Assembly (NCBI GenBank): GCA_023853785.1
Contig: JAJIRX010000781.1
Coordinates: forward strand, 1 to 64,000
Length of the DNA: 64,000 bases
From: Psilocybe azurescens
Taxonomy: Eukaryota; Basidiomycota; Agaricomycetes; Agaricales; Agrocybaceae
Reading direction: 5' to 3'
The notes beneath the pieces were generated by a model. The model was given only the letters and a program-made list of their open reading frames with translations. It was not told the DNA's origin and made no database searches. Numbering within the stretch: position 1 is the first letter of the stretch; every line of letters begins with the position of its first letter. Shown in pieces: positions 30,003 to 57,316 of this stretch. The translations under genes were made by a program, and so were the position numbers.

Positions 30003-30035
30003 ATTGAATACAAGTGTGTAAAAAATAAGTTAATT

Positions 30036-30200: not shown

Positions 30201-30321
30201 AGTGGTAACTGTGTAAATCTATTTTTATATTCAGCCTAAAGGTGTGGGAAATTGTTTTTACTCAGCTTCAAGCCATGGGAATTCCACTTTATTACTGTAT
30301 TGGCTATAAATAACTCTATTC

Positions 30322-30850: not shown

Positions 30851-31251
30851 TGTTATGAACATTTTATTTTTCCTCACTTTTTCATTTCCTTTTCATTTTC
30901 TTTCATTTTTTTTACATAAAACTTGACATATCACATGATGGACACCATCATGTGATCATTTCTACTTGACTCATTCTCATGCCAACTCATACTCTCAGTT
31001 AGATATTGGACTCTGACTCATGTTGATACTGTTATGACTCACTTCCTCTTCTGACTCACAATATGACTCACATCATACTAGTAGCTGTAGATACTCAAAC
31101 ACTTAAATAGCAAGTAGATACAATGATTGTTTTTAGCTAGTTCTTGAGAATCAAATTTCCTCTTACTTGATACTGCTTGGAACTCGCTGTTCTTGATTAC
31201 TTGACTGTCAGCTTTATCCATGCACATGAATAGATGCTTGAAGTTGTAACA
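30851..31251 (+). repeat. Ty3/gypsy LTR, 5' LTR of a truncated + strand copy
   Basis: Begins TGTTATGAAC and ends GTTGTAACA (401 bp). It is similar in reverse complement to the LTRs at 44681-45083, 51142-51542 and the split LTR 46934/52742. A gag leader follows directly on the + strand, so it is the 5' LTR of a truncated element. Confidence 0.85.
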
Positions 31252-31319
31252 AAAAAACTAGCTCATCTACAAATCTCACCCACTCTCTAGCAGATGAGAC
31301 CCTGAAACCCAAAACAAAA

Positions 31320-31880
31320 CATGGCACCACCAAAAGTGGAACCTCTGCTACTAACAGCTCTACAGAAGGAACCCCAACACAAAGGAATTAGCATACCCCA
31401 AACCCATTCCAGACAAAGCTCTGAGGGTATCAAACTAAAAAACAACAAGGACTTATCAAACTTGCTATTTGACTTATTATCAACTCTGGCAATAAATCAG
31501 AAAGAACAACAAGACACAGATATGGTCAAAACAAACAGAAAGAAAGAAATCTTGATCAACAAACCCACTATATTCAATGGAGGCAGAACAAAGTCCAAGT
31601 CTTTATACAAAACTGCTATCTCTATACGAACATAAACAAAGATATCTATAATACCAATAAGAAGAAAATCACTTTTGTCTTGTTGTTCTGCAGCAAAGCA
31701 GAAGTGAAATTATGAAAGGAACTACTGGCAACCACACCATTGATTGGGAAACCCTCACAGCCTTCCTTGATAAGTTCCACAACACATTCACACTCATACA
31801 CAAAACCAGATTGGCCATGAATGACAAACAACAACTCAGACAAAAACCCAAAGAAAGGAGGTCTTTTCTTTCCCCACACA
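31320..31880 (+). pseudogene. truncated gypsy gag fragment
   Basis: Starts with MAPPKVEPLLLTALQKEP and carries SRQSSEGIKLKNNKDLSNLL and LINKPTIFNGGRTKSK, which match the - strand gag start at 44660-44300 (there DLSNLLFDLLST-like and a conserved KPAVFDGDRTKSK-type block). It is cut off near 31880, where unrelated CCAGTGGA-rich sequence begins. No nucleocapsid, protease or polymerase follows on this strand. Confidence 0.7.
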
Positions 31881-32200
31881 ATCTATATGGAATCCAGTGA
31901 ATTCCAGTGGACTCCAGTAAACTCCAGTGGACTCTCTGCCCAGCCAAACTGGCTCACAGATTGTCTAGTCTACTGGACTGGACTGGACTGCAGTCCACTG
32001 GACTTGCACTGGACTCCTGCCAAATTTTCAGTCCAGTCTCAGTCCAGTGGATTATGAGTCCAGTCAAGTCCACTGGACTTGGGCCTAAATATTCACTGAA
32101 CAACAACAAATAATATATTTATTAGCACAGTCCAGTGGAGTCCAGTGGAGTCCAGTTGAATCCACTGGAGTCCACTGGATCCAATAATTAACACAATATC
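31858..32200. repeat. CCAGTGGA/TCCACTGG-rich transposon terminus
   Basis: Starts GGAGGTCTTTT, close to the terminal motif GGAGGTCTTTACA seen (reverse complement) at 43870-43885 and 46150-46165. It continues with dense CCAGTGGAGT, GTCCACTGG and CTGGACTGGA iterations. No coding frame. Probably the end region of a non-autonomous DNA element. Confidence 0.5.
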
Positions 32201-32539
32201 TGAAGTATGATCATTAGTTATTAATATTAATTGCAAAAATAAAAGACTAAAGTCAATGAAAATAAACTCTATAAAATAACAATTAAATGAAACAATAGTT
32301 AAATATATATGGGAGCAAAGCCTCCCTATGAATACATTTTTGTATTTTGTTCAGTCTGCAGGGTGAAATTTCACAGGCACATGTGATGCACATGCATGCC
32401 CAGCATCAGCCAATCAGCACGACAACAATCAAATGAACACATCAGCTCTTTTTTCCAACCACCACCCACCCCCTTCCTCTTCTTTTTCCATCGCCACTGC
32501 CATCCTTGCCCTCTCTGCTGTTCATGACAACTGCAGCTG

Positions 32540-33075
32540 CCACACACACAACAACGAGGACTGATGCAGACAACTGTGATAACAAGGACGATGAGGAAGG
32601 CTGCAACAAGGACATGGACGGTGATGGCAAGGATGAGGATGGTGAGGATGCGGATGGTGACAGCAAGGATGGCCAGCAAGGATGCAGATGGCAAGAATGG
32701 CAATGGCAAGGGCTAGGGAGAGGACACGTCGGTGAGGGGTGACAGTGACAGCAAGGACAGTGGGCAAGAGCAAGGAGGGTGAGGATGCAGATGGTGGGTG
32801 AGTACAGTGGACAAGGGGTGAGAACAGTGGGCAAGTACAGTGGGCAAGAGTGAGGATGGCAGGCAAGAACAAGAACAAGAATGCAGATGGCAAGGGCATG
32901 GACAGTGGGTGAGGAGAGTGAGGATATGGACAGTGGGCAAGTACAGTGGGTAAGTACAGTGGGCAAGGGCAAGGGCAGCAGGCAAGAGGAGCACAGCAGG
33001 GAAGAGCAAGGACAAGAACATAGATGGCAAGGGCAAGGAGAGTGAGGACATGGATGGCAGGCAAGTACAGCAGGC
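32540..33075. repeat. purine-rich imperfect minisatellite
   Basis: Iterated GGATGGTGAGGATG, GTACAGTGGGCAAG and GAGCAAGGAC motifs over about 530 bp. The long Cys/Pro/His-rich - strand frames here are a by-product of the low complexity and are not reported as genes. Confidence 0.7.
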
Positions 33076-33800
33076 AAGAGTGGAATCCAACCGGTTCGAC
33101 CAGAATTTTATTTGGCAGTGTCCCTGCCAATTAGCAGTAAAATGTCCAAATTTTTCCAACCAGATTCCGACCAGTTCCACTGTTAACAAGTCCGACCAAA
33201 ATCCAATCGAATCTGACCAGAATCCGACTGGAATCCAAGTGGAATTTATCAAATTTAAAACCCAATTAGACCCAATTCCGAGTGGAACTCGAGCAGTACC
33301 AAGCGGAACCATATTATGTCAGCATACTATTTATGGCTCAGCAAGTAATAACACAAAAAGTATACATAGATCTTAACAGTTTGTGACAAATTTGGTATTG
33401 TTAGAATTGTAAAATTCAGGAAAATATGTTTACATAATAGTTATATAAAATTAAACAATTTCCAGTAAAGAAATACCCATTTTCATATAAATCTGTGCTT
33501 ATATAATCCAAATTTCTTGAATAAAATTGATCTTTGTATTCTATTAATTTCTATTATTGCAACACTATTAAATATAGCTAACAGAGTACTATTTTGTTGC
33601 AAAAAGTGGTTTACAATGTCTATATATATTCAAATTTACAGAATTTTGTATATTGAACATGCTGACATAATATTCAGATAATGATGTAATTACAGGTGCA
33701 TTTCCCTCATTTTTCTGATCATTTTGATATATAATATGTGGGTATAGCTTCTGAGGAAGTGCCAGAATATATTATTGGGTGTTGTAAAGAATGGTATATA
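33075..33800 (+). repeat. Tc1-like element end region, left inverted copy
   Basis: Collinear in inverted orientation with 43125-43860: shared landmarks are TTTGGCAGTGTCCCTGCC, ATTATGTCAGCAT, TTTGTGACAAATTTGGTATT and GGTATAGCTTCTGAGG. In the right copy this segment leads into a Tc1/mariner transposase, so both are read as 5' regions of that element. Confidence 0.7.
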
Positions 33801-33827
33801 ATTTATAAAATGTTAAAAATACTACAA

Positions 33828-33903
33828 GCAATAATAGTGTAGTTGGTAAAGCATGTATAGAAATAATATATATAAGGCTGTTGGTTCAATTCCTGTTGAG
33901 TGT
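33828..33903 (+). other. tRNA-like sequence (tRNA pseudogene or SINE head)
   Basis: An A-box match TAGTGTAGTTGG at 33835-33846 and a B-box match GGTTCAATTCC at 33883-33893 are spaced as in a tRNA gene. The B box carries A where the consensus has the G of a CpG. I cannot close a convincing acceptor stem, so a functional tRNA is unlikely. Confidence 0.5.
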
Positions 33904-34079
33904 ATTTTATAATTTTGCATTTATTACAAATATCATGACCTGAATGGATTACTTAAGAGCTTATGTAAAAAAATTATGTAATACTGACTAAGCATACAAT
34001 ATCATGTGATTTCAATACATCATTTATAAGCTTATGTAAGCAATAATTATGTAAGGCTGACTAAGCATTGTTTTGTACA

Positions 34080-34660
34080 CTGAGTAAGTACATTCTGAGA
34101 AATTCCAACCAGATTCCAACCAGTTCTGAGTGAGTCTGAGTGGATTCCGACCAGATTCCGACCAGTTCCAACTGGGTCCAAGTGGTTAGAAATTCCAACC
34201 AGATTCTGACCAGTTCCAACTGGGTCCAAGTGGTTCCGACTGGTTCTGACCGGTACCGGTGGGGCACTGTAAAGTACTGCTTTTTCTGTTCTTTTTTCTT
34301 TTTGTTTCTTTTTGTGAAGTTTTTATTTTATTTTTACCTGTATATAACCATGTAGTATATAGTTTTTAATATATTATATTACATTGTCACATAAATTTAA
34401 GCTAAGATTAAAGTATTCCAGTTGGAATCCAATTGGATTCCATTCCATTCCATTCTATGTGAATTTAAAGTTGGACTTAGTGAAATTCACAAAGTCTTAT
34501 TGAATGAAATAAGCTGGAATGAACTTGGATTCCAGTTGGAATGGGCTCATTCCATGATTCCCAGCCATTCCACTTGAAACCATTAAATGGAATCAAATTG
34601 GAATTGGTCTGGATTCCAACTGGAATTCAACTGGAATGGGTGGGGACAGTAAAGTACTGG
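34080..34660. repeat. fragments of CCAACTGG-type and K-like repeats
   Basis: 34085-34260 repeats CCGACCAGATTCC/CCAACTGGGTCC units and ends at a GGGGCACTGTAAAGTACTG junction. 34340-34470 resembles the AT-rich interior of element K near 29190-29290 (GTAGTATATAGTT, AATATATTATATTACATT). A frame at 34541-34897 is open for about 118 codons but not recognised. Confidence 0.5.
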
Positions 34661-35099
34661 TTGTTCTGCAGGGACATCTGCAACTTTGAAGTCGGTTATA
34701 TCTGGGATGATAAGAGGAGAGAGAACAAATTGGGGTTTCTTTACTGTGCAGTGTTTGATGAGTACTTGTTCAATGGCTTGTTCAAATCCCCTTTGTTAAA
34801 GGCATTTGAGAGCATCATTGGCAGCCTTGTGGTGGACTCGGACTCTTGCATGTTTGACTGTGATGTCTGCCTTGATGATTCATATTTCACCAGCTAGATA
34901 GTTGAAGAATTCAAGTTCTTGTTTGATAAATGGGGGCAAAGGGCTTTAATGTCATATCAGTTTTCAGCATTTTTCAAGATTTCGAGAAGTTCGTAGACAG
35001 AAAGAGTATTAAAAAGTTGAGACAATGTAGTAGTAGGTTGGGGAACAGAGGAAGCACGAGCAGTGGAATGAGACATTGTTGAGTGTCGATGTTTACTGC

Positions 35100-35300
35100 C
35101 TAGAAGTGTAGCAACTTGACCTTTCTTATAGCCTTCATTGCCAGTCTGGGTTTGAGTATTTCCTTGAGCTGAGAAATCTGCAGTTTATACTCTAGATTCT
35201 GGTCATGCACCATTGCTGCACATCTTGCCTTGAGTTCATCGCGTGCTTGTCTCTCCACATCTTGGGAAATTATGAACGCTATCTTGAGATCTTCAAGCAT
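35100..35300 (-). other. coiled-coil-like frame downstream of gypsy pol
   Basis: A 66-codon frame rich in Glu, Lys and Leu (DLKIAFIISQDVERQARDEL, EYKLQISQLKEILK) follows pol. I do not recognise it. It may be an extra gypsy-encoded protein or host sequence captured at the 3' end. Confidence 0.3.
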
Positions 35301-35450
35301 TCATTGTCAGTCTTCTTGGCTTTTGGTATTTTTATCGTGAGGAAGATCAGTTAGTGGGTGTGTTAGGGAAAAGAGTGGACTTGACATGTTTGATTGAGAA
35401 AAAGGAGAGCATGTTGATTGATTATTGAAGGAGTAAAGATGATGGTCTTT

Positions 35451-38400
35451 TTACAGCTTGTGATGTGTTTGGTAAGCCTGTAAAATTTTATCACCAGTTT
35501 CTTCAAATACTGAAGCCAGGTCCCACATTGTTTTGGTGATCAGATAGTCTTTCCATTTGACATAGTACTGGTATCCTCTTCCTCTTTTTTGATGTTTGAG
35601 AATTGTCTCTATTTCCTAGTGTTCTTCTTCGTTTAATATCTCTGGTGGCGGTTGAATGAAGTTGGGTCCATGTGTTTCAGTTTTGTGATATGAATTAAGA
35701 AGTGTTGCATGGAATATGTTGTGAATGAGCCAGTCTTTGGGGAGTTCCAGTCAATAAGTTAGAGGTCCTAAAACTTCTTTAAATTTGAAGGGTCCTTCTT
35801 GCTTCAGTGCCATCTTTTGTGATAATTTGTCTGTAAATTTGTTGCTTCTAGCCAAACCTTTTGTCCTTGGGTGAATGGTATGAATTTTGAATTCTTCCTT
35901 TTGGCCATTCTTATCCAGGCTAGTTTGTGGGCAGCTAGGGCTTCTTCTTGATCCTTTTGAAGGTACTTCAGCCTTTTCTCTACTGAAGGGAATTTGGTGT
36001 GTTCAAATGCAGTGGGGATTGCGATAGGAGAGTATCCAAGGATCAATTCAAACAGTGTTCTCTATCTGTCCACATGTCTTCAGCTATTGTGAGTGAATTT
36101 GAGAGTTCCAAGTTGTTTGTGCCAGTCTTCTGGGTGAGATGAGCAATATATGGATAGATAGGCTTCGATTTCTTGATTGTATTGTTCTGTCGTTCCATCA
36201 GTCTGAGGGTGATACACGGTTGAGAATTTTGATTTTACTCTAAGAAGTTTCATTAGTTCCTTGAATGATTCGGGTGGAAAATCTGGGGCCTTGATCTGAT
36301 GTAAGGCTGTCTGGTAGACCAAACCTTTTGTAGAGATTGTCCAATAAGAGTTTGCTAGTTTTCTCAGCATCCAGTCCTTTCATCCAGCATGGAACAAGAA
36401 TAAGTCCTTTCGTGTTTCCGTGGTCAGTGATGCTCAGAATTGTGTCAAATTTGACTTCTCCTTGTCTGTCCAAGATTGGTGGGAGATTTGTAAGGAAATC
36501 CATAGCGCTATCTGCAAATGGTCAAGTTAATTTTGGTCTGGGTATTGGTGTGAAAGATGGGTTGGAGGAATGTCAATTTATCTTGAATTGTTGGCAAGCA
36601 GCACATCCTTTTACATACTGTTTGACAAATGAGCGTAGCCCTGGCCACCAATAATGTTGTTTAACTGAGTTGAATGTTTTGAGTTCTCCAGGGTGTCCAG
36701 CTGAAATAGGATCATGATATGATTTGACTATGTCCCTTTGTAAGGTTTGATCTTTTGGAATATAGGCTCATGTCATGTGTTCAGTGGTCCTCCTTCTAAT
36801 AAGGTTTTCATTGCTTCTGCTGTGTCGTGGTCCAGTTCATTTGCATTGGCAATTCTTTCCTGTAATTCAGCTTTGATTAAGTCAATGAAGAGTTTTTCTG
36901 GGAGTAAGGTGATGTTTTCATTGTTGTGATCTTCTTCTGGGGTAAAGTCGGGGCATCTTGATAGGGTATTGGATTGAATCATTTTGTTTCCCAGCATATG
37001 TACCAATTTCAGGTTGAATTCTGAGACATATAGAGACCAGCATGCCTGTCGTCGGTTTAAATTTTGGGCTGATCTGAAATATGTCAAGTTTTTATGGTCC
37101 AAATATACTGTGGTTGTGTGTTCTGATCCCTGGATGTGGTGCCTCCATTCTTGTAATGCTCAAATTATTCCCAATAATTCCCTGTCGTAGATTTCATAAT
37201 TCCTTTCAGTCGGGAAAATGTCCTGGATATAAATGCGCATAGATGTCTTTTGCCATTTCCGTCTAATTGAGTAAGGACTGCTCCAGAGGCATATTTTGAA
37301 GCATCAGATTCAATTTGAAATGGTTTAGAGGGGTCAGGCATCAGAAGTACAGGTTCTTCCATGAACTGTTTCTTTAGTTCATTGAAAGCAGCTTGAGTTG
37401 TGTCGTTCCATGAGAATCCTTTGTCTTTTTCAGGAGTTCATTCAAAGGTCAGGCCACCTCTGAGAACTTCCAGATGAATTTTTGGTAGAAGTTCCCATAG
37501 CCTAAAAATGATCAGACTTGCTTGAGAGTATTAGGCGCCGGCCAGTCTTGAATTCTTTTTAGCTTTTTTGGATCTATAGAAATTTTTCCTGCTTCGACAA
37601 TCATTCCAAGATATTCCACCTTTTCTTGAGCAAATGAGCATTTCTCTGGCTTGAGATAGAGATCATTTTCTTGAAGTCGTTGTAGAACCATTTTGGTGTA
37701 TTTTCCAGTTCTTTTCGATCTTTTGCAAAGATTAGAATGTTGTCCATATAGATGATTATGAAACATTGCAATATCATGTCTTCAAAGATTGAATCCATCA
37801 TGGATTGGAAAGTTGCTGGGGAGTTACACATGCCAAAGAACATTACAGTTGGTTTGAAGAGTCCTCAGTTGGTTTTGAATGCCGCTTTCCATTGGTCACC
37901 ATCTTTTATCCTGATGTTGTTGTAGCCTCATCAGATGTCCAATTTAGTGAAGAATTTTGCACCTTTTAACTTGTCTATGAGTTCTGTAATCCATGGTAAA
38001 GGATAGGCATTCTTGATTGTCCAGTTGTTCAGATATCTATAATCTTGACAAGGTCTGAGCTTCCTGTCTTTCTTTGATATGAAGAAGAAAGAGGATGCCA
38101 TAGGTGATTCCAAGGGTCAAATGTATCCTTTGTCTAGTTGTTCCTTTGTCCAGTTGTCCAGTTCTTTTTGTTCTGCTGGGGTGATATTGTATGCTTTGAA
38201 TATTTTGGGTATAAATCCTTCCTTTAGTTCAATTTTGTGGTCCCATGGTCTTGGTTCCAGGAATCGGTCTGCTGCTTGTTTGTCAAAAAGGTCCATATAT
38301 AAATGATATTCCAGGGGTATGGTGTTCTGGAGAGGTTTTGTCAGTTTCTCCAGTTCATATTGTTGGGCTAATGTTTGCAAGGTAGTGATTTTGGTGTTCA

Positions 38401-39330
38401 GCCAAGTTTCTTTTATCTTGTCTTCATTTGTGTTCCCAATATATTGGATGATTAGAGATTTGAATTCCTCCAGTGGATGAGTAGTCCTGATTGTTGATAT
38501 TTGTTTGTCTGTTTCTTCTTTGATGGTGGTCTGGTTTATTGTAGGTCCCTGACACGGTTTCCAAGTTATCTGCCTATTCTGCCAATTGATTTCTGGGTTT
38601 TTCTCTTGTAGCCAAGGGAATCCTAGAATAATTTTATGTTTTCCAAGCCCAGAGACTAATAACTGTTCTCAATGGTTCCAGTTCCTAACTTTTAGGTCCA
38701 AGTCCACAAATGATGAGATGGTTCCTTTCTTGTTTGGGTTTCCATCTACATTATAGACTCAGATTGGTTTCTCCAAGGGTCAGATTCTGAGTCCAAGTTT
38801 TTGTGCATAGTTCTGGTCAATGAATTTTCCTCCTGCTCCTGAGTCTAGAAGTGCAGAGGTTTCGACAATTTGTGAGCCATTCTGTTTTTTGCAGGGAATG
38901 AAACTGGTAAAAGCATAGTTTTATTCTCGATTGTTGCTGTAAGTACAGACTGTATCTTCAGATAAGGAGAGACAGATGTCGTCCTGTTTCTTTGCTTTAA
39001 AATCTTTTTCTTCTTCAAATCCCATTTTGACCATGAGGTCTGTAAGTTTGTCCTTTTCATCCTTGTTCAGGTTCTTAATGTGGGGTGTGGAGTTCCTTTG
39101 GAGTCCATTTCTTGCTTTGTTGTCCTTGGGTCTTGTTCTGATTCATTTGTCCTTTCTGTGAGCATTCTCTGGATAGGTGTCCTCGTTGTTTGCACCTGAA
39201 ACAGGTGCCTTTCCTGATTAATTTGGCTTGTTCTTCGGCTGTCATGGCACCCCACATCCATTCTGCTTGGGTCGTAGTACCTGTTGTACTTTGGGGGTTA
39301 TTCTATTGTGGTGCCCTTCTGCATCAGGAA
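35451..39330 (-). pseudogene. Ty3/gypsy gag 3' end and pol polyprotein, inactivated
   Basis: Order along the - strand: a CCHC zinc knuckle (CFRCKQRGHLSREC, near 39205); the protease active-site motif LLDSGAGGKF near 38855; reverse transcriptase with [20 protein letters not shown] near 38000 and GMCNSPATFQSMMDSIFEDM near 37830; RNase H with ESDASKYASGAVL near 37320 and HKNLTYFRSAQ near 37090. The integrase has DHGNTKGL and SDQGP near 36290-36420 and the Glu-containing TDGTTEQYNQEIEAYL near 36180. A GPY/F-like region and the chromodomain-like YQYYVKWKDY near 35570 follow. In-frame TGA codons appear near 38670, 38125, 37930, 37870 and 37165. The catalytic YMDD reads YMDN near 37750. Frame also shifts after ELENT near 37700. 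Not functional. Confidence 0.88.
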
Positions 39331-39639
39331 AAAGAGGTTTTATCCCAAAGAAATCTAGGTGTCTTTAAGCATCTTAGAGACTTTAAAGATGATAAAGACA
39401 CAAAGCACCCTAAGCACCTTTCAACGCCAAAGTGACGTGGGAACAGTTTATCCAAAGCATTCCAAAGCAACCCAAATATTATCCACAGGCCTCCCAAAGA
39501 CCTCTCATAGACATCTAAAGCTATTTAAGGCATCTCTGACATCCACTGAGATGTCTTTTATTTCTCTTCAGGTTCACTTGAGACGCAGCATGGTAATGGC
39601 ATCTTACAGAATTCAAGTATAGTAAAATGTATATATAAT

Positions 39640-40720
39640 TAAAGCAAGCTCTCTACTATAGTGATATGCTAGTTGATTAGACAATCACAGACAGGGAAGA
39701 GGATATATAAAAATAATATATAATAGGATAGATAGAACGTGGGGTGGTCCATTATCGTAATCTAAGATACTATAGCTAATGTTGGCATTGGGCCATTGGA
39801 TGGGCACAGCAGGTTGAGGAAGGAGAGGGCAAGTGGTGCATAGACATCAGGACTAGAGATAGTTGTCTATTACATGAGTTTTAGTGAGCAAAAAGTGGGG
39901 AAACGATAATCAAAACATACCTGTCAGAATTTAGCACCCTCATTCATTACTCCAAAAGGCAAGATAGTGGGATGAGTGCCACCAAATGTAAGCACAGGGA
40001 AATGGGCAGTGAGTCACCGGATGGCCAAATGAACATGGCAAATGATACATCACCGATGCCAGTGCTGGGGCCAAAAACAGTCCTATGCAACCTGTTATGC
40101 ACGTTGTAGTTAGTAAAGAGACGGAAAAGGGGCTGTGGTATACTCACTTTCAGGATTTAGCATTTCTATTCATAATGATGAAAGACAGAACAGTGGTGGT
40201 GATTGTGAGTGTAGGGTAGTGGGCATTAGACGCACCAGATGACAAAGATGACAAAGATAACAGGACTGTGAGCCACCCTCTGTGGTCTGTTGAACGTATG
40301 GTCGTTAGCAAAAAGAAAAAGACGGGAGATGGACTGAACATATCTGTGCAGATGGGGCGGCATGGTGTTTGATGTGAGCTAGTTGCATACTTAGTTGCCA
40401 CTGTATGTGGCATAAGCATGTGGCATGGTACACTGGGGGTCTTGGTTATGGATTAGCAATAGAGGGTGGTAGAGGGTAATGGTAGTACTTACTGAGGTAC
40501 TGCCATTATTACGCTACATGGGCACCATTGCCAGTTCTTGTTACTGTCAGGTGGTGTCAGCTTTACTATATAAAAGGGAATGGTGGTACTTAGTATTAGC
40601 ACAGTGAGTGTGGGGCAGTGAAAATGGCATCAACAACATTGGGCATCATTGACAATTATGAGGGTAAGGGAACGGTGGTGGTGGTGGTGAACCAAGAACA
40701 AAGTTGAACTTCACAAATCG
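39640..40720. other. nothing recognised inside the composite insertion
   Basis: AT-rich and GTGG-rich sequence with no conserved frame. Two passages (39900-40140 and 40140-40420) share similar wording (AGGATTTAGCATT, GGGCAGTG/GGGCATTA), suggesting an old local duplication. Confidence 0.35.
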
Positions 40721-40724
40721 CTAG

Positions 40725-41735
40725 GCAACAGCATGGGTATTCCCGTATATATCGGCCCTTTTAGCCATATTAAATCTTTGAAATACCATACACATGAATC
40801 GCGCATTTTTACCCATCAAAAGAGTCTAAAAACAGCCAAATTGGTGGAGAAATGACTGAGATATGGCCTATTTTAATGCATTGCATACAATTGGCCATAA
40901 TTCACTCAGTTTTGGCTTAAAAATTACGCTTTTGGACTTGTTTTGAAGGTGACAGGTAGGATAATTTTTATCCGTAATTTTATCCACACAATAACCGGCT
41001 ATTAACCCGTACACAATACCCGAACCCGTGCCATTGCCTACAAGTCACAGAAGTTCAATCTTTCACATGATGCATGGGAAAATTTCCCAAAACTGATATA
41101 AAAATGATGTGACCAAATCTACGAGACATGTCTTGTAGATTTGGTCATGTCCCTTTAGGAAATACTGTCACAACCAAAATGCATCCCATCTTGTATAAGT
41201 TGTACTAAAGGCAGGGTGAGTTATAGCAACAGTGCTGGGTGAGAAGAGTGTGGTAGTACATATCTTTCAGTTATCCAAGCTCTAAACAAGGATGTGAGAA
41301 TGTGGTGGGTGGTGGAATGTTGAAAGGAGTTCACTTCACCAGGAATGGCATAAGTAAACAAAAGCACAAATGGAGAATGTCATGTGATTTACATTATTTA
41401 TTTGCTTTCAAGGGCAACAGCATGTGTATTTCTGTGCGTATCGGTCCTATTATCCGTATCCAGCCCGTGTAATACCATACCCACAATCTGTGCATGTTTA
41501 CCAATCAAAAGAGTTCAAAAATAGCCAAATCGGGCCAGAAATGACTGAGATATGGCCTATTTTAATACATTGTACAAAATTGGCTGTAACTTACTCAGTT
41601 TTGGTTCAAAAATTATGTTTTTGGGCTCGTTTTAAAGGGGACAGACAGAATTTTTTATCTGTAATTGTATCCGCGCTATGTCCGGCTATCAACCTGTACA
41701 GAATACCCGAACCTGTGCCGTTGTCTAGGTTCAAA
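40725..41735 (+). repeat. pair of direct repeats of about 320 bp
   Basis: 40725-41040 and 41412-41735 align along their length: shared GAAATGACTGAGATATGGCC, TATTTTAAT.CATTG, CTCAGTTTTGG and AATACCCGAACC. They are separated by 370 bp of other sequence. Confidence 0.75.
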
Positions 41736-41892
41736 TTGAATTTGCCTTTTGCATATCTTTTTTACCATGCAGCTACTATTTTCCTGCAATCACCAGGCCC
41801 TGTGCCCCTGTCTTATTCCATTATCTTTTAAATATCATGTTGTAGATGTAGTTTATTAAATTAGCTATGTACTTATCTAAGGAATTCTAAGG

Positions 41893-42197
41893 AATGGCAC
41901 GCATTTTTGAGCCCATGTGGGTTATGGGTACCGGTACGCATGGGTATGGGTACGGGTAACGATTTTCGTACGCGTGAGATTTCAAACGAGCTCTAGAACA
42001 TCCCAAACGGTTGAGAATTGAGTGAGATAGAAAGGAAGCAGTGAAATTCACTATTTCTGATCTATCTCCCTCATTTCTCAACCGTTCAGATATTTTGGGC
42101 TCGTTTTGACAGGTAAACCCGCCGGATTGCGGGTAGGTCTCGCCAAGGGTATGGGTACGGGTATAGCGCAAGATTCCCGCAGGTCACCCATGCCATT
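41893..42197. repeat. palindromic MITE-like element
   Basis: About 305 bp beginning GGAATGGCAC and ending GTGCCATTCC-like (TGCCATTCC); the arms pair through GGGTATGGGTACGGGTA/CCCGTACCCATACCC-type motifs and through CTCAACCGTT near the centre. No coding content. Confidence 0.65.
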
Positions 42198-42479
42198 CCC
42201 TATACTTATCTAAGATTTAATAATGCTATGCTCAGAAATTTCAAGAATGCTTTGTGGTAATTTAGAATTTTTAGAAGACTCATAGAGAGCTTCAGAGAAA
42301 TTTGAAATCTTGCAAAGACTGCTGAAAGCTTTGAGGAATCAGACTATTTCCAAAGACCACAAAGACATCCCAAAGCAGCCTAGAGTGATAAATGTGCTTT
42401 ATAAAGGTTGTAATTACCTAAGACATTCTCAGGGCAAATCCCTTTTTCCTGATGTACGCATTTTATGGTCAATATCCGA

Positions 42480-42960
42480 GTACAAGCTTACCTTTTTCCT
42501 TGTAAATCCATGTTGATACAGTGCTCTTGTAATCATTGTTGCATCGACATCTGCATTGTAGGCCACAAATAATGCATTCTGTAGCTCTAATACATAAATG
42601 TCTGGCCTTTGCTCAATGAGGCACTTGAGATACTTTTAGATTCCAGTTAGAACCTCATTAGTAAAGGAGTCAAGCAACACTTACAAGGACTTCCAGAGAG
42701 GTCAATTCCCGTGGCCTCCCTGTTTCTGATGGATGCTTCACTACTTCACCTGTTGATCTCCACCGACTTTTCAACCGTCGAATGGCACGAGAACTGATCC
42801 CTGTTGCAAATTCAATGTTCTTGTCCTTCATTCCGCTGAAGGGACATCATAAGAACGAGTCTCTTCTGTTCTTCTGGGATATATCGATAGTTTCCCATAG
42901 TAGAAGCTTCACACTGTGTTGGATAGTAGTAGACGTTGAGTAGATGATTGTTTAGATAGT
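42480..42960 (-). pseudogene. Tc1/mariner transposase, N-terminal half
   Basis: On the - strand: MGNYRYIPEEQKRLVLMMSL, then after a one-base frame change KDKNIEFATGISSRAIRRLK and SRWRSTGEVVKHPSETGRPR, the paired helix-turn-helix region with the GRPR motif that Tc1-like proteins use for DNA contact. A GTAAGT...AAAG intron follows, then YLKCLIEQRPDIYVLELQNA and ITRALYQHGFTRKK. The sequence ends at the internal insertion near 42455, before any DDE catalytic residues. A relic, not active. Confidence 0.75.
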
Positions 42961-43124
42961 TGAAAAACAGGCAAAGTGACTAGAACTACCATAATGGGGT
43001 TGATATCCTGGACTCCACGGCAACGTCATGGAGCTCGGGTAACCAAAAGCAGCTGTTTGTGCAAACAAAGGCGCACACATGAAAAAATTTGAAAGTGGCC
43101 TAGGGTTTTGCAGATAGCTGGAAT

Positions 43125-43885
43125 TATATACCATTCTTTACAACATCTAATAATATATTCTGGCACGTCCTCTGAGGCTATACCCACATATTATATATCA
43201 AAATGATCATAAAATTGAGAGCAGTGTGTCTGTAACTATATCATCATATGAATATTATGTCAGCATGTTCAATATGCAAAATACTGTAAATTTGAATATA
43301 TATGGACATTATAAACTATTTTTGCAATAGAATAGCACATTGTCAGCTATATTTTAATAGTGTAGCAATAAAAAAATTCATAGAATACAAAAATCAATTT
43401 TATTTAAGAAATTTAGATTATATAAGCACAGATTTATATGAAAAATAGGTATTTCTTTACCAGAAAATTTCCAAATTTATGTAACTATTACATAAACATA
43501 TTCTTCTAAATTTTACAATTCTAACAATACCAAATTTGTCGCAAACTGATAAGATCTGTGTATACTGTTTGCATTATTGCTTGCTGAGCTGTAAATGGTA
43601 TGCTGACATTATACAGTTCCGGCCAGTACGACTTGGATTCCACTCGGAATTGGGTCTAATTAAGTTTAAAACTTATATAAATTTCACTTGGATTCCAATC
43701 GGATTTGGTTTGGACTTGGTAACAGTGGAACCAGTCGGTACTGGTGATTCTGACTGGAATCTGGTCAGAAAAATTTGAACATTTTCCTGCTAATTTGGCA
43801 GGGACACTGCCAAATAAATTCCGGTCAGACCGGTCGGATTCTGACTGGTTCTGACCGGAAACTGTGAGGAGTGTAAAGACCTCCT
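43125..43885 (-). repeat. Tc1-like element end region, right inverted copy
   Basis: Inverted, collinear partner of 33075-33800. It directly precedes (on the - strand) the Tc1 transposase N-terminal half and forms the outer end of the insertion in gag. Confidence 0.7.
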
Positions 43886-44660
43886 TGGATTGTTCTTGGG
43901 AGATTATCAGAATACATGATTTTGTCAGTGAGTTGAGGCATGATGCATTTTGGAATAATCCTATGAGATGAATGTGGTCCGATTCTGTTTCCGTTCCTAG
44001 GTTGGCCTGTTCTACCAACAATTTGAGTTTGTTGATAATGTCTTCTACTCTTTCATTGGGCTTTTGCCTGAGTCACTTCATGTCATTCATGGCTGACCTG
44101 GTTTCGTCTACTGGAGTGAATGCATCATGGAATTTTTGAGAAAGGTTGCAAGAGTGTCCCAGTCAATGGTTTGATTGGGACTGGTTCCTTCGTTCTTGAG
44201 GTCAAATACTGTTCTTTCCAGAGTTTTGCTCCTCCCTCCATGCAGAATAATAAGATGAAGGCAATTTTCTTCTTGTCTGTGTTATAAATGTTGTTGTTTA
44301 TGTCTATGTAGAGGAGCAGTCTTGTAAAAAAGACTTAGATTTTGTCCTGTCTCCATCGAATACAGCGGGTTTATTGATCAAGATTTCTTTCTTTCTGTTG
44401 GTACTTGTTTTAACCATTTCTGCATCATGTTGTTTTTCCTGATCTATCACCAGTGTTGATAATAGGTCAAATAGCAAGTTTGATAGGTCTTCATTGCCTA
44501 GGTTGATATCTTCAGAGCTTTGTCTGGACGGGTTCGGTGTTTGCCAATTTCATGTCAGGGTTCTTTCTTCAGAGCTGTCTGTAGTGGAGATTCACTTTTT
44601 GGTGGTGCTGTGTTTTGTTTTGGGTTTTAGGGGTCTAATCTGCTGGAGAGCAGGCAAGAT
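43886..44660 (-). pseudogene. gypsy gag, 5' part
   Basis: Reads on the - strand from the leader downstream of the LTR. It includes SRQSSEDINLGNEDLSNLLF-like residues near 44500 and the block INKPAVFDGDRTKSKSFYKT near 44350. It stops at the insertion at 43885. Homologous to the + strand fragment at 31320-31880; frame is broken by stops and small shifts. Confidence 0.7.
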
Positions 44661-44680
44661 TCGTAGAGGAGCTAGTTCTT

Positions 44681-45083
44681 TGTTACAACTTCAGGCTTAT
44701 ATTCACATGTGTGGATAAAGCCAACAGTCAAGTAGTCAAGAACAGTGAGTTCCAAAGCGGTATCAAGTAAGAAGAGATAAGATTCTCAAGAACTAGCTGA
44801 GGAATAATAGCAGTGTCTACTGGCTATTTAAGTGTTTTGAGTATCTACAATTATAGTACAATATGAGTCCAAGTATGAGTCAGAGCATAAGATGAGTCGC
44901 AACAGTGCTGTCGATGTGAGTCAGAACAAGAAGTGAGTCATAACGGTATAGACAATGTGAGTCAGAGTAGAATGAGTCAGATATACAATCACATAATGTT
45001 GTCCATCATGTGATAAGAAGGCTTTTATATATGAAAATGAAAAGAAAAGGAAAAGAGCAAAGAAAAATAAAGTGTCCGTAACA
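44681..45083 (-). repeat. gypsy 5' LTR (403 bp)
   Basis: On the + strand begins TGTTACAACT and ends GTCCGTAACA. It lies immediately upstream, on the - strand, of the gag leader. On the other side it abuts a Tc1 transposase relic, which it probably interrupted. Confidence 0.88.
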
Positions 45084-45089
45084 GCATAT

Positions 45090-45575
45090 AGAAAACCATC
45101 AAATTTAGAGAAGGACATATGATGATTTGGAGTTGTATAACAACAAGTGGTATTGGCTACATGTGCAGGATAGAAGGCAAGATGGATGGAGAACTCTATA
45201 TAAGCATTTTGGATGACCATGTCTTCCAAACTCTGGAGTATTACAACTTTAATCAGGATAATTTCATCTTTTAGCAAGATAATGACCTCAGACACACATC
45301 CAAAAGGCTCAGAAATGGTTTAAAGCCCATAAAACAGAACTTTGAACTGGCCAGCATAATAACTAGATTTCAATCCAATTGAAAATTTGTGGCATATTCT
45401 CAAAATCTGCATTGTAGAATACAAAAATACTCAAAGGGTATCCAGAAGTTGTAGGGCAGAATACTGGAGGAGTGGGAGAAAATACACAAGGAAGACTATG
45501 TGAAATCAATCAATAGTATGTCTAGAAGAGTTTTAGAAGTTTTGAAGGCAAAGTGGAGCCACACAAAGTGCTAGT
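45090..45575 (+). pseudogene. Tc1/mariner transposase, C-terminal DDE part
   Basis: On the + strand: HMMIWSCITTSGIGYMCRIE and GKMDGELYISILDDHV; then QDNDLRHTSK with the second catalytic Asp, followed by AQKWFKAHKTEL in a shifted frame and DFNPIENLWHILK, the block carrying the region of the third acidic residue. A C-terminal helix with VLKAKWSHTKC ends near 45575. Frame breaks and a TAG before QDND show it is dead. The N-terminal half is missing because the gypsy LTR abuts at 45083. Confidence 0.75.
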
Positions 45576-45579
45576 TTAT

Positions 45580-46930
45580 ATAGATACCCATATTCCAACA
45601 GGCCACAAAGAAACTGTCCAGATGTGTTAATTTTGTAAAGTATTTAATAATAATAGATGAACCAAAAAAATACAAACATATATTATATCGCTTGAAAGCT
45701 GTGATCCAGGGCTTTCTATTGCATTTAAATCATGTAATTTCATAAGGATTACATGGAGTTATAGTCAATTTAAGTTCAATTTCAAAAACATCCAGACAGT
45801 TTTTGAGTCACTGTAAGTTTGAAACTCAATTTAATTTTTTAATTAATAATAATAAGAATAACTCTATCACTGATTGTTTGCTTGTATCCTTTGGATGTCT
45901 GTTGGACTTCTGTTGGACTTCTGTTGCCTGTCCAACCATTCTGGTCAGCTCTAATAGACTAATAGGTTTTTTCTACTGCTTTCCATTGGACAGTCTGCTT
46001 GAAAAGTCTATTCAATTAATTATCCAACCAGAAAGTGAGTGGACTGTTACTGGAAAGTGAGCAGAAAATTTTACCAAATTTGCACCAAAGAAAATGGTGT
46101 TCTGGTTACACCAAGTCCAATGGAAGTCCAGTGGATTCTGATCAGACAATATTGAGGACTGTAAAGACCTCCCAGTTTAGACCATGTTGCCAAACAGACT
46201 CTTAGCACATGTGGCCTGCTATACTGTGTCAGAACTTCAGCTAATGTTTTCTGTGTTCTCTGCTATTCTCAGTCAATGCATAGTTACATCCTTTTACAGA
46301 TACAATCTCTAGCCTAACTGCCCAGTGCTTAGACATTAATAATTATACCATTTACACTACTAAGCTATGAGCTGATACTGTGTATTTTATAGATTTACCC
46401 ATCCTTTGTAAGCATATTATAGCTCACTTGTGTACATCTGGATACTGAAAATTTCAGCTATCCTTCATTATTTGTCTTTCCATACAACTAGCCATAGAAT
46501 GGTCTCTTTAATTGGTTTTTGAGCTTTTATACAGAGAGTATAGTAATTGTCAGGGCAACACTAAAATCAGTGTGACAAGGTCACTAACAAAGACAAATAA
46601 GAGAGTAGGAGCAGAGGATGAGAAAAGAGCAGAGAATAGACTTATGAGGAATCAATGATCTGAAAGTCCACACCAATGCTAGTGGAAATCCTAAGAGATT
46701 GAAGCTGGGGATCTACTCTAAAATATGCAGTATTTATATTACTCTAGAGGTAACTGACTAAGCAAGGTTCCATGATGAGTAATAAGAAAGACCACAATGA
46801 AAAATAATGAAGACAATGATGAGTAATAAACAAGACCATGATGAGTAATAAAGCGAGTGATGATGGAAACTTCTGGGATGATCAAAATATTAAGAAGAAT
46901 AAAAGATATAATGAATGATGAATGATAAGA
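45580..46930. other. transposon debris, no gene
   Basis: Follows the Tc1 relic. It includes a probable Tc1 3' end (CAGTTTTTGAGTCACTGTA near 45797) and a segment ending GGACTGTAAAGACCTCC near 46150-46168. The GATGAGTAATAA motif recurs near 46770-46860. No coding frame. Confidence 0.5.
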
Positions 46931-46933
46931 TAA
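46929..46933. repeat. 5-bp target duplication of the split LTR, left copy
   Basis: GATAA immediately before the LTR start TGTTATGAC; identical to 52743-52747 on the far side of the split LTR. Confidence 0.85.
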
Positions 46934-47459
46934 TGTTATGACTTCAGGCCAGTACTTCTCACTCCCCCACATATTCCCTAGGACTGGAGGGATTGAGAAA
47001 GGGAGTGAAGGGAATAGAGGGAATAGAGGGAATAGAGGGGATTGAAGAGGGAATAAAAGGAATTGGAGAGGGAATGGAGGGGAATGATGGGAATGAAGGG
47101 GAATGATGGGGAATGAAGGGGAATGATGGGGAATGAAGGGGAATAGAGTTATTTATAGCCAATACAGTAATAAAGTGGAATTCCCATGGCTTGAAGCTGA
47201 GTAAAAACAATTTCCCACACCTTTAGGCTGAATATAAAAATAGATTTACACAGTTACCACTACTATCATACATCTACTATACACTGCTTATATAATCCTT
47301 ATATCATACACCTACTGTACACTGCTTATATAATTTACCCTGTATCATACACCTACATACACTGCTTATGTAATCTACCTTATATCATACACCTACTGTA
47401 CATTGCTTATATAATCTACTATGTGAATTAACTTATTTTTTTACACACTTGTATTCAAT

Positions 47460-47705
47460 TTAGTCTGAGTCAGAATCACTGGTCTCTGCTTCACTAGAAT
47501 CACTAGTCTCTTCATCCAATCCTAATTCTTCATTTTCATCATCACTATCTGAAGACTCTGCCTTTCTTTTCTTTTTTGCAATGACATATTTTGTGTGGTA
47601 AAATAGTATTGTGTGTAGAAACCAGTTGAAATTGCCAGGTGTCATACATTTAAGTATAGATTCAAAACCACCCAGCCATGCATTTAATTGTTCTATATCA
47701 TACAC
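47460..47705 (-). pseudogene. KDZ transposase C-terminal fragment (right K copy)
   Basis: An uninterrupted frame with EQLNAWLGGFESILKCMTPG, then NFNWFLHTILFYHTKYVI, the basic patch KKRKAE and the acidic tail SSDSDDENEELGLDEE ending DSDSD at 47460. It lacks the ESCPEYICIDKG and HYINHQAND regions that the left copy retains, because 47700-47740 joins directly to a tandem-repeat unit, indicating an internal deletion. The acidic Ser/Asp tail is a feature shared with the left copy. Confidence 0.82.
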
Positions 47706-53397: not shown

Positions 53398-56300
53398 TCA
53401 ATAATATAAATGAATAGAAAACAAATAAATTGGCTTACAGAGAAGGTTTTGAAAAATTATTTTTTGAAATTTTGCAAAATCATCATCAGATGGGCAATGT
53501 TGTTTTGTGATCCAGTCATCCATCTGTATAGATGACAAATAAGTGTTTAAAAGTTGATCAACTTGACTACATCTATCTTTCAGATAAGTGCTCCAAGCTT
53601 TTAAAAATTTGTGAATAGGGCTATCACTAGTTGAAGTGATCCAAAATGAATATTCAACTGTGATAAGAATAGCTAAAATAAACAATGAGATAGACAAACT
53701 AGAGAAACAGAGTAGCTATTTACTAACCTGCAAAAGCATTGAGGATGGCTTCTATAGCAATGATATTTGATGAGTGATAGAGTTTTAGAAATGCAAATCC
53801 AGGACTGAAACAAAATCTTACAGAAAATTGATCACAAATATGTTTTTGGATTTGTTGTACCTATAAAATAAAAATAATGTCAAAAAAAAACAACAATCAG
53901 TACGTAATGAGGAATAAAATGAACACAACTTACAAACTAAATAATGTGTGATGTTGATATATTAGCAATTTCAAATTAGCACAAGTAGTACACACAACTT
54001 ACTTCCTGAAAAATATTCATAAAAAGAATATTAGCAACTACAGTAAATCACAAATAGTGCATATGACTTTACAAACTGAATAAAAATGGGTACAGAAAAT
54101 ATTAGCAATTGCAATTAATTACAAATACTACACACAACTTACATACTGAATAAAAAGTATTGCAGAAAATATCAGCAATTGCAATCAATCACAGACAGTG
54201 CACACAACTTACATCCTGAATCAGAATTGATGCAGAAAATATCAGCAATTGCAATCAATCACAGACAGTGCACACAACTTACATCCTGAATCAGAATTAA
54301 TGCAGAAAATATCAGCAATTGCAATCAATCACAGACAGTGCACACAACTTACATCCTGAATCAGAATTAATGCAGAAAATATCAGCAATTGCAATCAATC
54401 ACAGACAGTGCACACAACTTACAAGCTGAATCAGAATTGATGCAGAAAATATCAGCAATTGCAATCAATCACAGACAGTGCACACAACTTACACGCTGAA
54501 TCAGAATTGATGCAGAAAATATCAGCAATTGCAATCAATCACAGACAGTGCACACAACTTACATGCTGAATCAGAATTAATGCAGAAAATATCAGCAATT
54601 GCAATCCATCACAGACAGTGCACACAACTTACATGCTGAATCAGAATTAATGCAGAAAATATCAGCAATTGCAATCAATCACAGACAGTGCACACAACTT
54701 ACACGCTGAATCAGAATTAATGCAGAAAATATCAGCAATTGCAATCAATCACAGACAGTGCACACAACTTACAACCTGAATCAGAATTAATGCAGAAAAT
54801 ATCAGCAATTGCAATCAATCACAGACAGTGCACACAACTTACAATCTGAATCAGAATTGATGCAGAAAATATCAGCAATTGCAATCAATCACAGACAGTG
54901 CACACAACTTACACGCTGAATCAGAATTGATGCAGAAAATATCAGCAATTGCAATCAATCACAGACAGTGCACACAACTTACATGCTGAATCAGAATTGA
55001 TGCAGAAAATATCAGCAATTGCAATCTATCAGCAATTGCAATCAATCACAGACAGTGCACACAACTTACAACCTGAATCAGAATTGATGCAGAAAATATC
55101 AGCAATTGCAATCCATCACAGACAGTGCACACAACTTACAAGCTGAATCAGAATTGATGCAGAAAATATCAGCAATTGCAATCCATCACAGACAGTGCAC
55201 ACAACTTACATCCTGAATCAGAATTGATGCAGAAAATATCAGCAATTGCAATCCATCACAGACAGTGCACACAACTTACATCCTGAATCAGAATTGATGC
55301 AGAAAATATCAGCAATTGCAATCCATCACAGACAGTGCACACAACTTACATGCTGAATCAGAATTAATGCAGAAAATATCAGCAATTGCAATCAATCACA
55401 GACAGTACACAACTTACATCCTGAATCAGAATTGATGCAGAAAATATCAGCAATTGCAATCAATCACAGACAGTGCACACAACTTACATCCTGAATCAGA
55501 ATTAATGCAGAAAATATCAGCAATTGCAATCCATCACAGACAGTGCACACAACTTACATCCTGAATCAGAATTGATGCAGAAAATATCAGCAATTGCAAT
55601 CAATCACAGACAGTGCACACAACTTACATTCTGAATCAGAATTGATGCAGAAAATATCAGCAATTGCAATCAATCACAGACAGTGCACACAACTTACAAT
55701 CTGAATCAGAATTGATGCAGAAAATATCAGCAATTGCAATCAATCACAAACAGTGTACACAACTTACAGTCTGAATTATATTTGATGTTCCACATATCAG
55801 CAAATCTAATTGAGCATGCAATCATTTTTGACTAGCAGGATTCTTACATCATAATTCTTATAAAGTACTATTAGCATATTATCAATAGTTCTGAATGTTG
55901 CACTCACATGCTATTTATATGTCATTACAATAATTTAACAAATAAATATTCACTGCTTACAGTCTAATTCAATGTCAGTTCCTGTAGTTTATAGTGCAGT
56001 TGCATATTCACATACATAATAGGTATGTGGAAACCAACTGATGGCCTCAAATATCAAATCATCCTTTATATATGAATTAACCACTTAAATCATTTTGCAC
56101 ACCTTAACCAACATACATTATTTTTATTTCTGTTATACTTTGATTCCCTATACTAAAAAATATCATAAGTAATGTTAAAATACAACAAACTAATAACATA
56201 CCTCTTTATTGCATACTCAATGCATATCTTCAAATTATTTTGCTGAACAGTAACAAACAGCTTTTTGAGAGCAAGGTCATCTATTGATGCTGCTGTTTTT

Positions 56301-57316
56301 TGATCAACTCTTCAATTTGTTTTTGGTGATCACTTTCGTTCTTATCAAGTGCTATTAATGATATTAAGTCTCTAAATTGATTTAGCAAATTATAAATGAC
56401 TTACCCTCAAGCTGAACATAACTCCGTGGGGGAAATTTATAGCTTCTAAGTGGTTGCTCAAACTTCTGCTGCAAAGTGTCCAAAGCATGCCTGGTATTCT
56501 GCTCTAGGGTATTGCTTCTGTTCCAAACCTGACTGATAAGATCGTCAAATTTCATGAAGATTGCCACAACTGGCACTGGTTTAATGTAAGTTTTCATCAT
56601 TGAAATGTTTGTGACAAGCTTACCATTCCATTTGCGATTTTCATTGAAAAATTTAACTTCCAAGTCCAATAAGGGGCGTGATACATCAGGGTCAAAGCAA
56701 AACCTACACCCATTGTGATCTGAGGTGCTTCAAATAAAATAAAAACAATAAACACATACCATATGATATGAATTTGACTATCAACTTCACGGGCCTTTGA
56801 ACCCTCTTCAATGAAATCCATCACAGCCTTCAGTTCCTCCTCACCCCCTGCCTCAAAACCCGCCGAGTCATGGAAGATGAACTTCGGGTTACTCTTAAAT
56901 GTGAATGCTCGACGGACGTCATGAGTTCCACGCTTCAGTGCCAAAAGTCAGTCATTTGATCTGTGGGAATGCAGAAATTATGGAGTAGTACCCTCGAAGT
57001 CGGTTCAAGCTATTGACAAATAATAAGTGTCTGACATCTTGCGTAAGGCTGGGTAGCTCACAAGATTTTTACCCTCATCGTAGATGGATGGCTCTTCAGT
57101 CGTGTTACATACCCGCTTTAACAGGGTTGTTTTGCCAGCGTTTGCCCTCCCGATAACAAGAATGCGAAAATGGGTGTATTTGGCTCGGAGTTTCGCGGCC
57201 TCTTTCCTTGGTACTGTCCCGGTACTCGGCGATCCAAGTCCCAGGGATTTCTTTAGTCGATTGCCCAATGCTTTGACTTTCGACTCTTTAGCAGGATTTT
57301 CACGATTAGCGGACAT
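53398..57316 (-). CDS. P-loop GTPase (agaricomycete G-domain protein), multi-exon
   Basis: Starts at ATG 57316 (SANRENPAKESKVKALGNRL). Exon 1 ends at a GTAAAA donor at 57072 and contains the G1/Walker A motif GRANAGKT. The next exon carries HDSAGFEAGGEEELKAVMDF (G3, DxxG). After an intron comes CFDPDVSRPLLDLEVKFFNE, then another intron and VPVVAIFMKFDDLISQV (a G4-like KFDD), SYKFPPRSYVQLEG, and a further exon (about 56340-56201) with SIDDLALKKLFVTVQQNNLK and CIEYAIK. A probable C-terminal exon pair lies at 53861-53398: VQQIQKHICDQFSVRFCFSP, FLKLYHSSNIIAIEAILNAF, WSTYLKDRCSQVDQLLNTYL. These exons are separated by a 2-kb array of intron-like repeats on the same strand. One A is missing in the run near 56290 (KKTAASIDD frame). 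Such G-domain proteins are expanded in mushrooms; cellular role unknown. The link of the 5' and 3' exons into one gene is an inference. Confidence 0.75.
53934..55963 (-). repeat. tandem array of about 28 intron-like 70-bp units with 3-nt spacers
   Basis: Read on the GTPase coding strand, each unit is 3 nt followed by 67 nt that starts GTAAGTTGTG, holds GCTGATA as a branch-site match and ends TCTGATTCAG. Spacer triplets (given by their lowest + coordinate) lie at 53934, 54003, 54073, then every 70 bp to 54983, then 55070, 55140, 55210, 55280, 55350, 55418, 55488, 55558, 55628, 55698, 55768, and an outlier at 55961. The core units are nearly identical apart from a purine switch, an ATCAATC/ATCCATC switch and the spacer. 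Edge units are diverged yet keep GTAAG, CTAAT/CTGAT and CAG or TAG. One 17-bp duplication lies at about 55027-55043 and one 2-bp deletion near 55407. Confidence 0.92.

Follow-up and report, generated by a model that had tools for sequence, protein, structure and literature searches.

Tandem intron-like units separated by hypervariable triplets, probably single-codon exons, in a GTPase gene family of Psilocybe azurescens

A GTPase gene of Psilocybe azurescens was found to carry a tandem array of intron-like units separated by hypervariable triplets. The gene lies in the window, which is the whole stretch of 64,000 nucleotides that was analysed. Arrays of this kind were placed at 39 loci in the genome, all of them in one GTPase family. 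Comparison of the arrays, their flanking exons and related proteins makes it probable that the triplets are spliced single-codon exons, coding together for a diversifying and probably recognition-related segment of the protein.

Structure of the array and its host gene

On the minus strand of the window, 28 acceptor-NNN-donor junctions follow one another from 55966 down to 53939. The earlier note had listed these triplets in order, and a recount reproduced all 28 of them at the same coordinates, with GAA as the sole triplet that is not NNT, as had been claimed. Independently, TRF reported a 70-bp period with 24 copies and 91% matches at 54093-55787. The spacing of the window units is mostly 70 bp, with exceptions of 68, 69, 87 and 193 bp. 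The 87-bp spacing is an internal 17-bp duplication in one unit, and the 193-bp spacing is a stretch with older units, such as CAT followed by the donor GTGAGT. The core array is embedded in a longer run of older, decayed units that extends upstream. When the window's 21 clean units were scored position by position, the pairwise difference was 0.67 and 0.60 at the first two gap bases and 0.00 at the third. Most intron positions showed no difference at all, two were polymorphic (0.43 and 0.50) and a few reached 0.10. The reading of the region as a row of intron modules in a GTPase gene, with hypervariable exons of one codon between them, is supported. The features of the gene, read along the minus strand, are as follows.

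56361..57316, minus strand: GTPase-coding exons (GRANAGKTTLLKR, FIFHDSAGFE, MKFD) interrupted by short introns; approximate boundaries (Pfam, homologues)
56202..56351, minus strand: exon ending in ..VQQNNLKICIEYAIK, upstream of the array (sequence; homologous part aligned)
56016..56063, minus strand: 48-nt exon DDLIFEAISWFPHTYY, the last ordinary one before the array; ends in phase 0
53934..55963, minus strand: about 28 intron units in tandem, mostly of 67 nt (GTAAGT..CTRAT..YAG), with putative 3-nt exons between them (junction recount, TRF, unit profile)
55961..55963, minus strand: first putative single-codon exon, ACT, with donor GTAAGC (junction recount)
55908..55910, minus strand: older putative single-codon exon, CAT, with donor GTGAGT; present in many paralogues (sequence)
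53861..53933, minus strand: last intron, after the final TTT codon; most of its sequence differs from the array unit (sequence)
53822..53860, minus strand: 39-nt exon VQQIQKHICDQFS after the array; starts in phase 0
53728..53751, minus strand: short exon equivalent to EPSLNAFA; 24 nt here compared to 25 in most paralogues shown, with the frame disrupted in the window copy
53440..53662, minus strand: C-terminal exon (AILITVEYSFW...IIFQNLL), common to the family (match at all 27 loci first compared)

The joined exons matched the Pfam family MMR_HSR1 (PF01926) with an E-value of 2.8e-06 and 27.9 bits, compared to a curated cut-off of 21.9, and the relatives P0055 and P0060 were also above the cut-off (25.9 and 26.1 bits). 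These two relatives, used whole as queries, provided the C-terminal side of the domain search. For the window protein, P0055 and P0060, Pfam gave no NACHT match above the cut-off and no ankyrin match; in P0055, NACHT appeared as a sub-threshold P-loop match (13.3 bits compared to 26.7). A database search with the host protein returned 748 homologues, the nine best being Psilocybe cyanescens gene models with 57-84% identity. A search of PDB sequences gave weak GTPase matches only (best E 0.0027).

Among 29 sequences, 19 contained the exon that precedes the array (DDLIFW..WFPHNYY), and in 15 of those 19 it is 48 nt long and in frame. The 39-nt exon after the array was found in 23 of the 29 sequences examined and is 39 nt long, without a stop, in all 23. 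Both junctions flanking the array are in phase 0 and, therefore, each triplet reads as a codon. There are no stops among 651 triplets, 630 of which are NNT. The window copy is one base short, compared to its paralogues, in two neighbouring exons (before DDLIFE, and EPSLNAFA) and, thus, may be a young pseudogene or contain assembly errors. Frame differences in the 48-nt exon were also seen at loci L010, L011, L020 and L028. The family likely contains pseudogenes, or the assembly contains errors.

One reading of the array that does not involve coding is a satellite or a regulatory splice sink, which would be removed as a single 2-kb intron or act as a trap, with the triplets untranslated. The variable bases beside conserved splice signals, the phase-0 flanks and the lack of stops argue against this, as does the occurrence of 3-nt gaps between introns of unrelated sequence in sister genes. 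Removal from the first donor to the last acceptor is possible in principle, and the P. cyanescens gene models examined stop at or before the array point, except for P0007, which skips it. A pure splice sink, which the earlier note had offered as an option, is not supported, given flanks that are in frame when the triplets are read as codons and transcript-like homologues that carry a hypervariable segment at this place. We consider a satellite or sink very improbable.

Occurrence of the arrays in the genome

The genome assembly comprises 70.4 Mb in 937 contigs. A DNA search with a 301-base piece of the array gave 246 matches, with about 150 places among the matches listed. In the 27 loci first compared, consisting of the window and 26 further loci, GTPase exons lie upstream of the array in 25, the other two arrays being at contig ends, and the C-terminal exon lies downstream in all 27. 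A search with the GTPase exon gave 40 matches at 38 loci, and at 36 of these loci the exon is followed by an array in the same orientation (26 of class A, six of class B and four of a third kind). The remaining two, on C758 and C9, are outside the array count. Three class A arrays without an exon-1 match bring the total to 39. The unit that the earlier note had described in one gene does recur elsewhere in the genome, and the array is not unique to the window gene. The arrays contain about 9-50 units each. Searched for as a pattern, three GTRAGT donors in succession with YAG-NNN spacing gave 766 matches in the genome, with places known for 100 among the matches listed, and the reversed pattern gave none, which excludes chance as the source of the arrangement.

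Many near-identical introns could also be the product of an introner-like element, in which the intron is a mobile element that spreads by insertion. Amplification of this type had been suggested earlier, and the distribution of the copies does not bear it out. They are in tandem and, among the matches listed, occupy one position of one gene family, with short fragments elsewhere (C211, C693 and C680). There is also no target-site duplication, since the triplets on either side of a unit are often different. An introner-like origin is extremely improbable on these grounds.

Two of the fragments, C211:120989-121215 and C693:8932-9157, are short pieces of class A array with 72% identity and no GTPase exon match, and they are possibly gene remnants. 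At locus L023, on C680 near 44.5 kb, 41-bp and ATTCCC repeats like those at window positions 30039-30421 lie directly before the array, and two further units are found about 2 kb upstream of it. These features suggest that an element like the one of about 18 kb described next inserted into the L023 GTPase gene. In the window, an element of about 18 kb at 29800-47663 has inverted ends of 238 nt at 100%, further arms of 140, 108, 96 and 85 nt, and 41-bp subterminal repeats. An element of about 10 kb at 290-10400 has long inverted ends (267 nt at 100%, with further arms inward to about 1.4 kb), and a 54-bp tandem repeat lies at 28546-28822 within a 290-aa open frame.

Splice signals and spacing of the units

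A profile of the unit gave 699 matches in the 27 loci, 604 of which were full-length. Of 595 gaps between adjacent full units, 583 measure exactly 3 nt and the other 12 measure 0-4 nt; one gap of 1887 nt, between separate clusters, was left out of the 595. Since the profile was built from units found by a 3-nt pattern, gap sizes were recounted without the profile. In the loci examined, a 3-nt gap was counted 605 times, compared to 16 times for sizes of 0-2 and 4-15 nt together. Indels were found in 12 of 595 gaps (3 bases) and in 122 of 604 introns, which are not 67 nt long (67 bases). Per base, gap indels are no rarer than intron indels and, therefore, gap length alone was rejected as proof of selection on the frame.

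The donor is GTAAGT in 571 of the 604 full units, and the acceptor is CAG in 562 and TAG in 42. In the 443 clean 67-nt units, G1, T2, A3, A66 and G67 are invariant, the invariance of GT and AG being partly by construction since full-length matches were chosen, and the branch A is present in 442. Across all 699 matches, GT is at the expected end in 666 and AG in 667. The 95 matches that are not full-length have GT at the expected place in 62 (69 within 3 nt) and AG in 63 (88 within 3 nt), which leaves 26 without GT and seven without AG within 3 nt.

Two other candidates were tried and rejected. Stwintrons do not match an array in which complete donor-to-acceptor units are separated by 3 nt in 583 of 595 cases. 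For a host array of known snoRNAs, the four Rfam matches in the region (E up to 10) scored 15.8-22.1 bits compared to gathering scores of 35-47.

Variability of codons and introns

Within arrays, the 443 clean units differ pairwise by 0.635 and 0.604 at the first two gap bases and by 0.064 at the third, and the intron differs by a mean of 0.094 and a maximum of 0.334. Even between units with identical introns, the triplet differs in 303 of 443 pairs within arrays and in 1166 of 1319 pairs between arrays. The third triplet base differs in none of the 443 within-array pairs. Between arrays, the proportion of pairs that differ is 0.88, compared to 0.89 expected for randomly drawn triplets. Identical neighbouring triplets are commoner than in shuffles (133/525 compared to a mean of 92.9), and this excess is a sign of unit duplication.

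Six pairs of paralogues were compared to contrast the rates of change. In L011/L012, the introns are 1.2% different, the flanks 2.9-5.1% and the variable bases 52%. Together with L012/L015 and L013/L015, this pair has introns and flanks about 1-5% different and variable bases 52, 65 and 61% different, respectively. The closest pair, L017/L018, shows 0.6-1.3% in the flanks and 29% in the variable bases, and L021/L009 shows 9% in the introns and 76% in the variable bases. L026/L027 has the opposite trend, with 12% in the variable bases, 3.7% in the introns, 5.1% in the 3' flank and a third base that differs in 2 of 17 cases. Near-identical units can be misaligned in register and, therefore, register-free counts were added. 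By this count, 17 of 23 L012 triplets have no partner in L011, with introns about 1% from their nearest match. The values are lower for other pairs, such as L013/L015 (4/18) and L017/L018 (5/28).

A pattern that would fit concerted evolution with diversification at fixed codon positions is seen both within and between paralogues. We infer from these comparisons that diversifying selection on the codon is combined with homogenisation of the array. The 16 NNT triplets are used in a far from independent manner, and Cys and Ser codons are rare (chi2 171, a value inflated by unit duplication).

Another possible explanation is that the two bases are actively rewritten, by targeted hypermutation or by conversion of the codon only, in which case no selection would be needed. 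The lack of relation between triplet and intron identity between loci (1166/1319 pairs differ) would be expected from such a process. No mechanism is known to us by which change would be limited to two donor-adjacent bases, and this counts against it. Selection on the amino acid explains the unchanging third position, where T to C is synonymous, and the skewed NNT usage fits selection as well, with the reservation that its statistic is inflated by duplicated units. Targeted rewriting is, in our view, quite improbable as an alternative to diversifying selection.

Sister genes with other introns and the same spacing

Loci with the GTPase and no strong unit match were partly read, and two of these, L039 and L040, carry strongly diverged versions of the array. 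Their gaps are 3 nt at 26 of 27 and 31 of 32 parsed donors, respectively, counts in which two ambiguous cases were taken as 3 and three L040 matches without a nearby donor were dropped. At L041, the unit is an unrelated one of 69 bp with a GTGAGT donor, which gave one match to the class A profile (E 4.8), and all 29 of its gaps are 3 nt. Its triplets are GAT, TTG, CGT, GGT, GCT and CAT. The three codon bases at L041 differ by 0.62, 0.70 and 0.44, and most intron positions by zero, with one at 0.51. L042 has the unit class of L041 (class B) with the triplets TTT, TTG, AGT, GAA and GAT. A DNA search located class B at six loci, always in the orientation of a GTPase match and downstream of it. 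A pattern of donors then A/G revealed arrays at four of the five remaining diverged GTPase loci, and these are known from the pattern alone. The C-terminal exon was not found at the class B and third-kind loci in the search that matched all 27 loci first compared. The occurrence of a different intron with unchanged one-codon spacing in a sister gene provides the strongest argument for conservation of the codons as opposed to the sequence of the repeat.

Variable segments in related proteins

A search with a C-terminal profile found proteins on environmental contigs of 0.9-1.6 kb, in which the frame is uninterrupted across several intron positions of the family. Based on their frames and lengths, these contigs were taken as spliced RNA. 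The environmental proteins have a variable segment between WFxH..YDYGKTE and ..KPSLxxFAAILICLENSFW, for example IIDLRHLAYDDDDLLLLLDGLL (P0055), EGGLGGGRLGGRLGHLRLGLGGRGGGLGHLRL (P0121) and DRRGLGLLGILRRDLLRDLGRRDL (P0147). Of 31 proteins aligned from 171 database relatives, 16 had at least 10 segment residues and at least 40 residues after the segment and were scored (15 environmental and one genome model); the other 15 rows were dropped. In 11 of the 16, the complexity of the segment is below that of all flank windows of the same length, and in five it is not unusually simple (P0060, which is the genome model, P0127, P0130, P0145 and P0097). Between P0128 and P0141, the flanks are identical at 69 of 83 and 91 of 106 positions, compared to 7 of 16 in the segment, which also has 10 gaps.

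The spliced segment predicted for L031 (nndhdddfhfhrrillrhrsfhfhhll) resembles those in the environmental proteins, and the mature product would read ..WFPHFYY-NNDHDDDFHFHRRILLRHRSFHFHHLL-IPKIVQTIRGQFS.. at this place. At L033, VVSTQFSKPSLNAFA, which is downstream of the array, aligns to IVSTKFDKPSLYAFA of P0124 and puts the variable segment at the array's position. In the relatives, which are known from transcript-like proteins, the segment may likewise be encoded by microexons.

A restricted alphabet without K, E, Q, M and W, residues that no NNT codon specifies, was tried as proof of NNT coding in other species and fails for most segments. There are no such residues in P0055 and P0147, and one each in P0121 and P0125. 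In the 16 scored proteins, they make up 60 of 381 segment residues compared to 1011 of 4432 flank residues.

Among the 171 relatives, 62 reach WFxH; 42 of these stop short of SFW, and 20 continue to the C-terminal SFW, four of which are NCBI genome models. Such truncation is expected if gene predictors fail at microexons, and fragments contribute to it too. One gene model, P0033 from Phlegmacium glaucopus, contains a stretch of M, L, I and V only (IMMLILMMVMMLLLLLIMLI), like the +1 reading of an NNT run. This stretch is possibly a mis-framed microexon product.

Combinatorial alternative splicing could add to the single-codon exon explanation. Codons would be skipped freely, and many isoforms differing by single residues would result. 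Since nearly all exons are 3 nt, any skipping would keep the frame, and splicing of this kind is reported for the nearest precedent, the truffle nank family. Compared to P0141 and P0139, P0128 and P0146 seem to have kept an upstream intron, suggesting that splicing of such transcripts may be incomplete. Wholesale skipping of codons is not what the lengths of the scored homologue segments point to, as these are 10-34 residues and fall within the range of 9-50 units. We regard combinatorial splicing as possible, with the balance tipped slightly against it.

Proposed origin and role of the variable segment

In the single-codon exon model, each 66-67-nt unit would be an ordinary GT-AG intron and each 3-nt gap a phase-0 codon. 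Splicing of every unit would then join about 9-50 codons. The resulting segment would be hypervariable and often of low complexity, and it would lie after the GTPase domain and before a C-terminal region that is conserved. At the DNA level, the units would expand, contract and homogenise through tandem duplication, unequal exchange or conversion, and this would keep the introns alike. Diversifying selection would act on the codons, and the neutral intron repeats would provide a substrate for recombination around each variable codon. The segment probably serves in recognition, which could be non-self recognition, allorecognition or the sensing of symbionts or viruses. This role is proposed by analogy with fungal NLR repeat domains and truffle microexon NLRs and is the weakest step of the model.

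A broader and rather unlikely proposal is that mushroom-forming fungi use single-codon exon arrays as a dedicated diversity generator. Neutral introns would be kept alike as a recombination substrate, and one codon per unit would change tens of times faster than the background through selection, perhaps with help from a targeted process. Combinatorial splicing would multiply the repertoire, and at least one replacement of the intron sequence would have left the architecture intact.

Comparison with known systems

The earlier note knew of no described system of this form, and this was wrong. In the descriptions available, truffle NACHT-ankyrin genes are reported to have tens of alternatively spliced 3-bp exons (Iotti et al. 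2012, via PMC4986451, PMC10197012 and PMC3689799). No description of the arrayed GTPase family was found in the open literature searched. With the basidiomycete GTPases, tens of single-codon exons would be known from a candidate recognition family for a second time, apparently independently of the ascomycete NACHT-ankyrin genes. Neutral and selected sites would be unusually well separated within each repeat. The arrays offer a natural experiment in concerted evolution and a means to test how small exons can be and how far intron definition can go. They also suggest that, in standard gene prediction, the variable part of these proteins is skipped or lost by truncation.

Several other systems share single features with the arrays. 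Introners, fungal introner-like elements and stwintrons likewise provide many sequence-similar introns per genome (PMC9860276, PMC4457414, PMC12403724). In the parts of these accounts consulted, they are dispersed or nested, whereas the GTPase introns are in tandem, in one family, with single codons between them. SNHG14 with SNORD115/116 has tens of consecutive similar introns, and those introns are described as carrying snoRNAs in the portion of the source used (PMC11608373), whereas the GTPase introns match no Rfam family at the gathering score. The Schistosoma micro-exon genes are a variable family with many short exons, mostly multiples of three. They differ in having exons of 6-81 bp (3-81 bp according to the abstract), long introns and secreted proteins, and the sections of the source consulted mention no homogenised intron array (PMC10526429).

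The closest likenesses are fungal. In fungal NLR repeats (HNWD WD40, ANK and TPR), which are described as having high internal conservation (PMC4986451, in part), the repeat is protein; here, the repeat is mostly intron with one exonic codon each. As in the nank family of Tuber melanosporum, so far as its partial descriptions go, the genes form an expanded fungal family, they contain tens of 3-nt exons with splice signals, here at the sequence level, and their products are nucleotide-binding proteins of the P-loop type; those of nank are discussed as non-self receptors. The family described here differs in that it has an MMR_HSR1-type GTPase, with no NACHT or ankyrin match above the cut-off, and belongs to a basidiomycete. 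Its exons form a tandem array with homogenised introns and extreme codon variability, a comparison limited on the nank side to those partial descriptions. By analogy, the GTPase arrays may work as the truffle nank system does, and as do fungal NLR repeats, which are subject to concerted evolution and diversifying selection.
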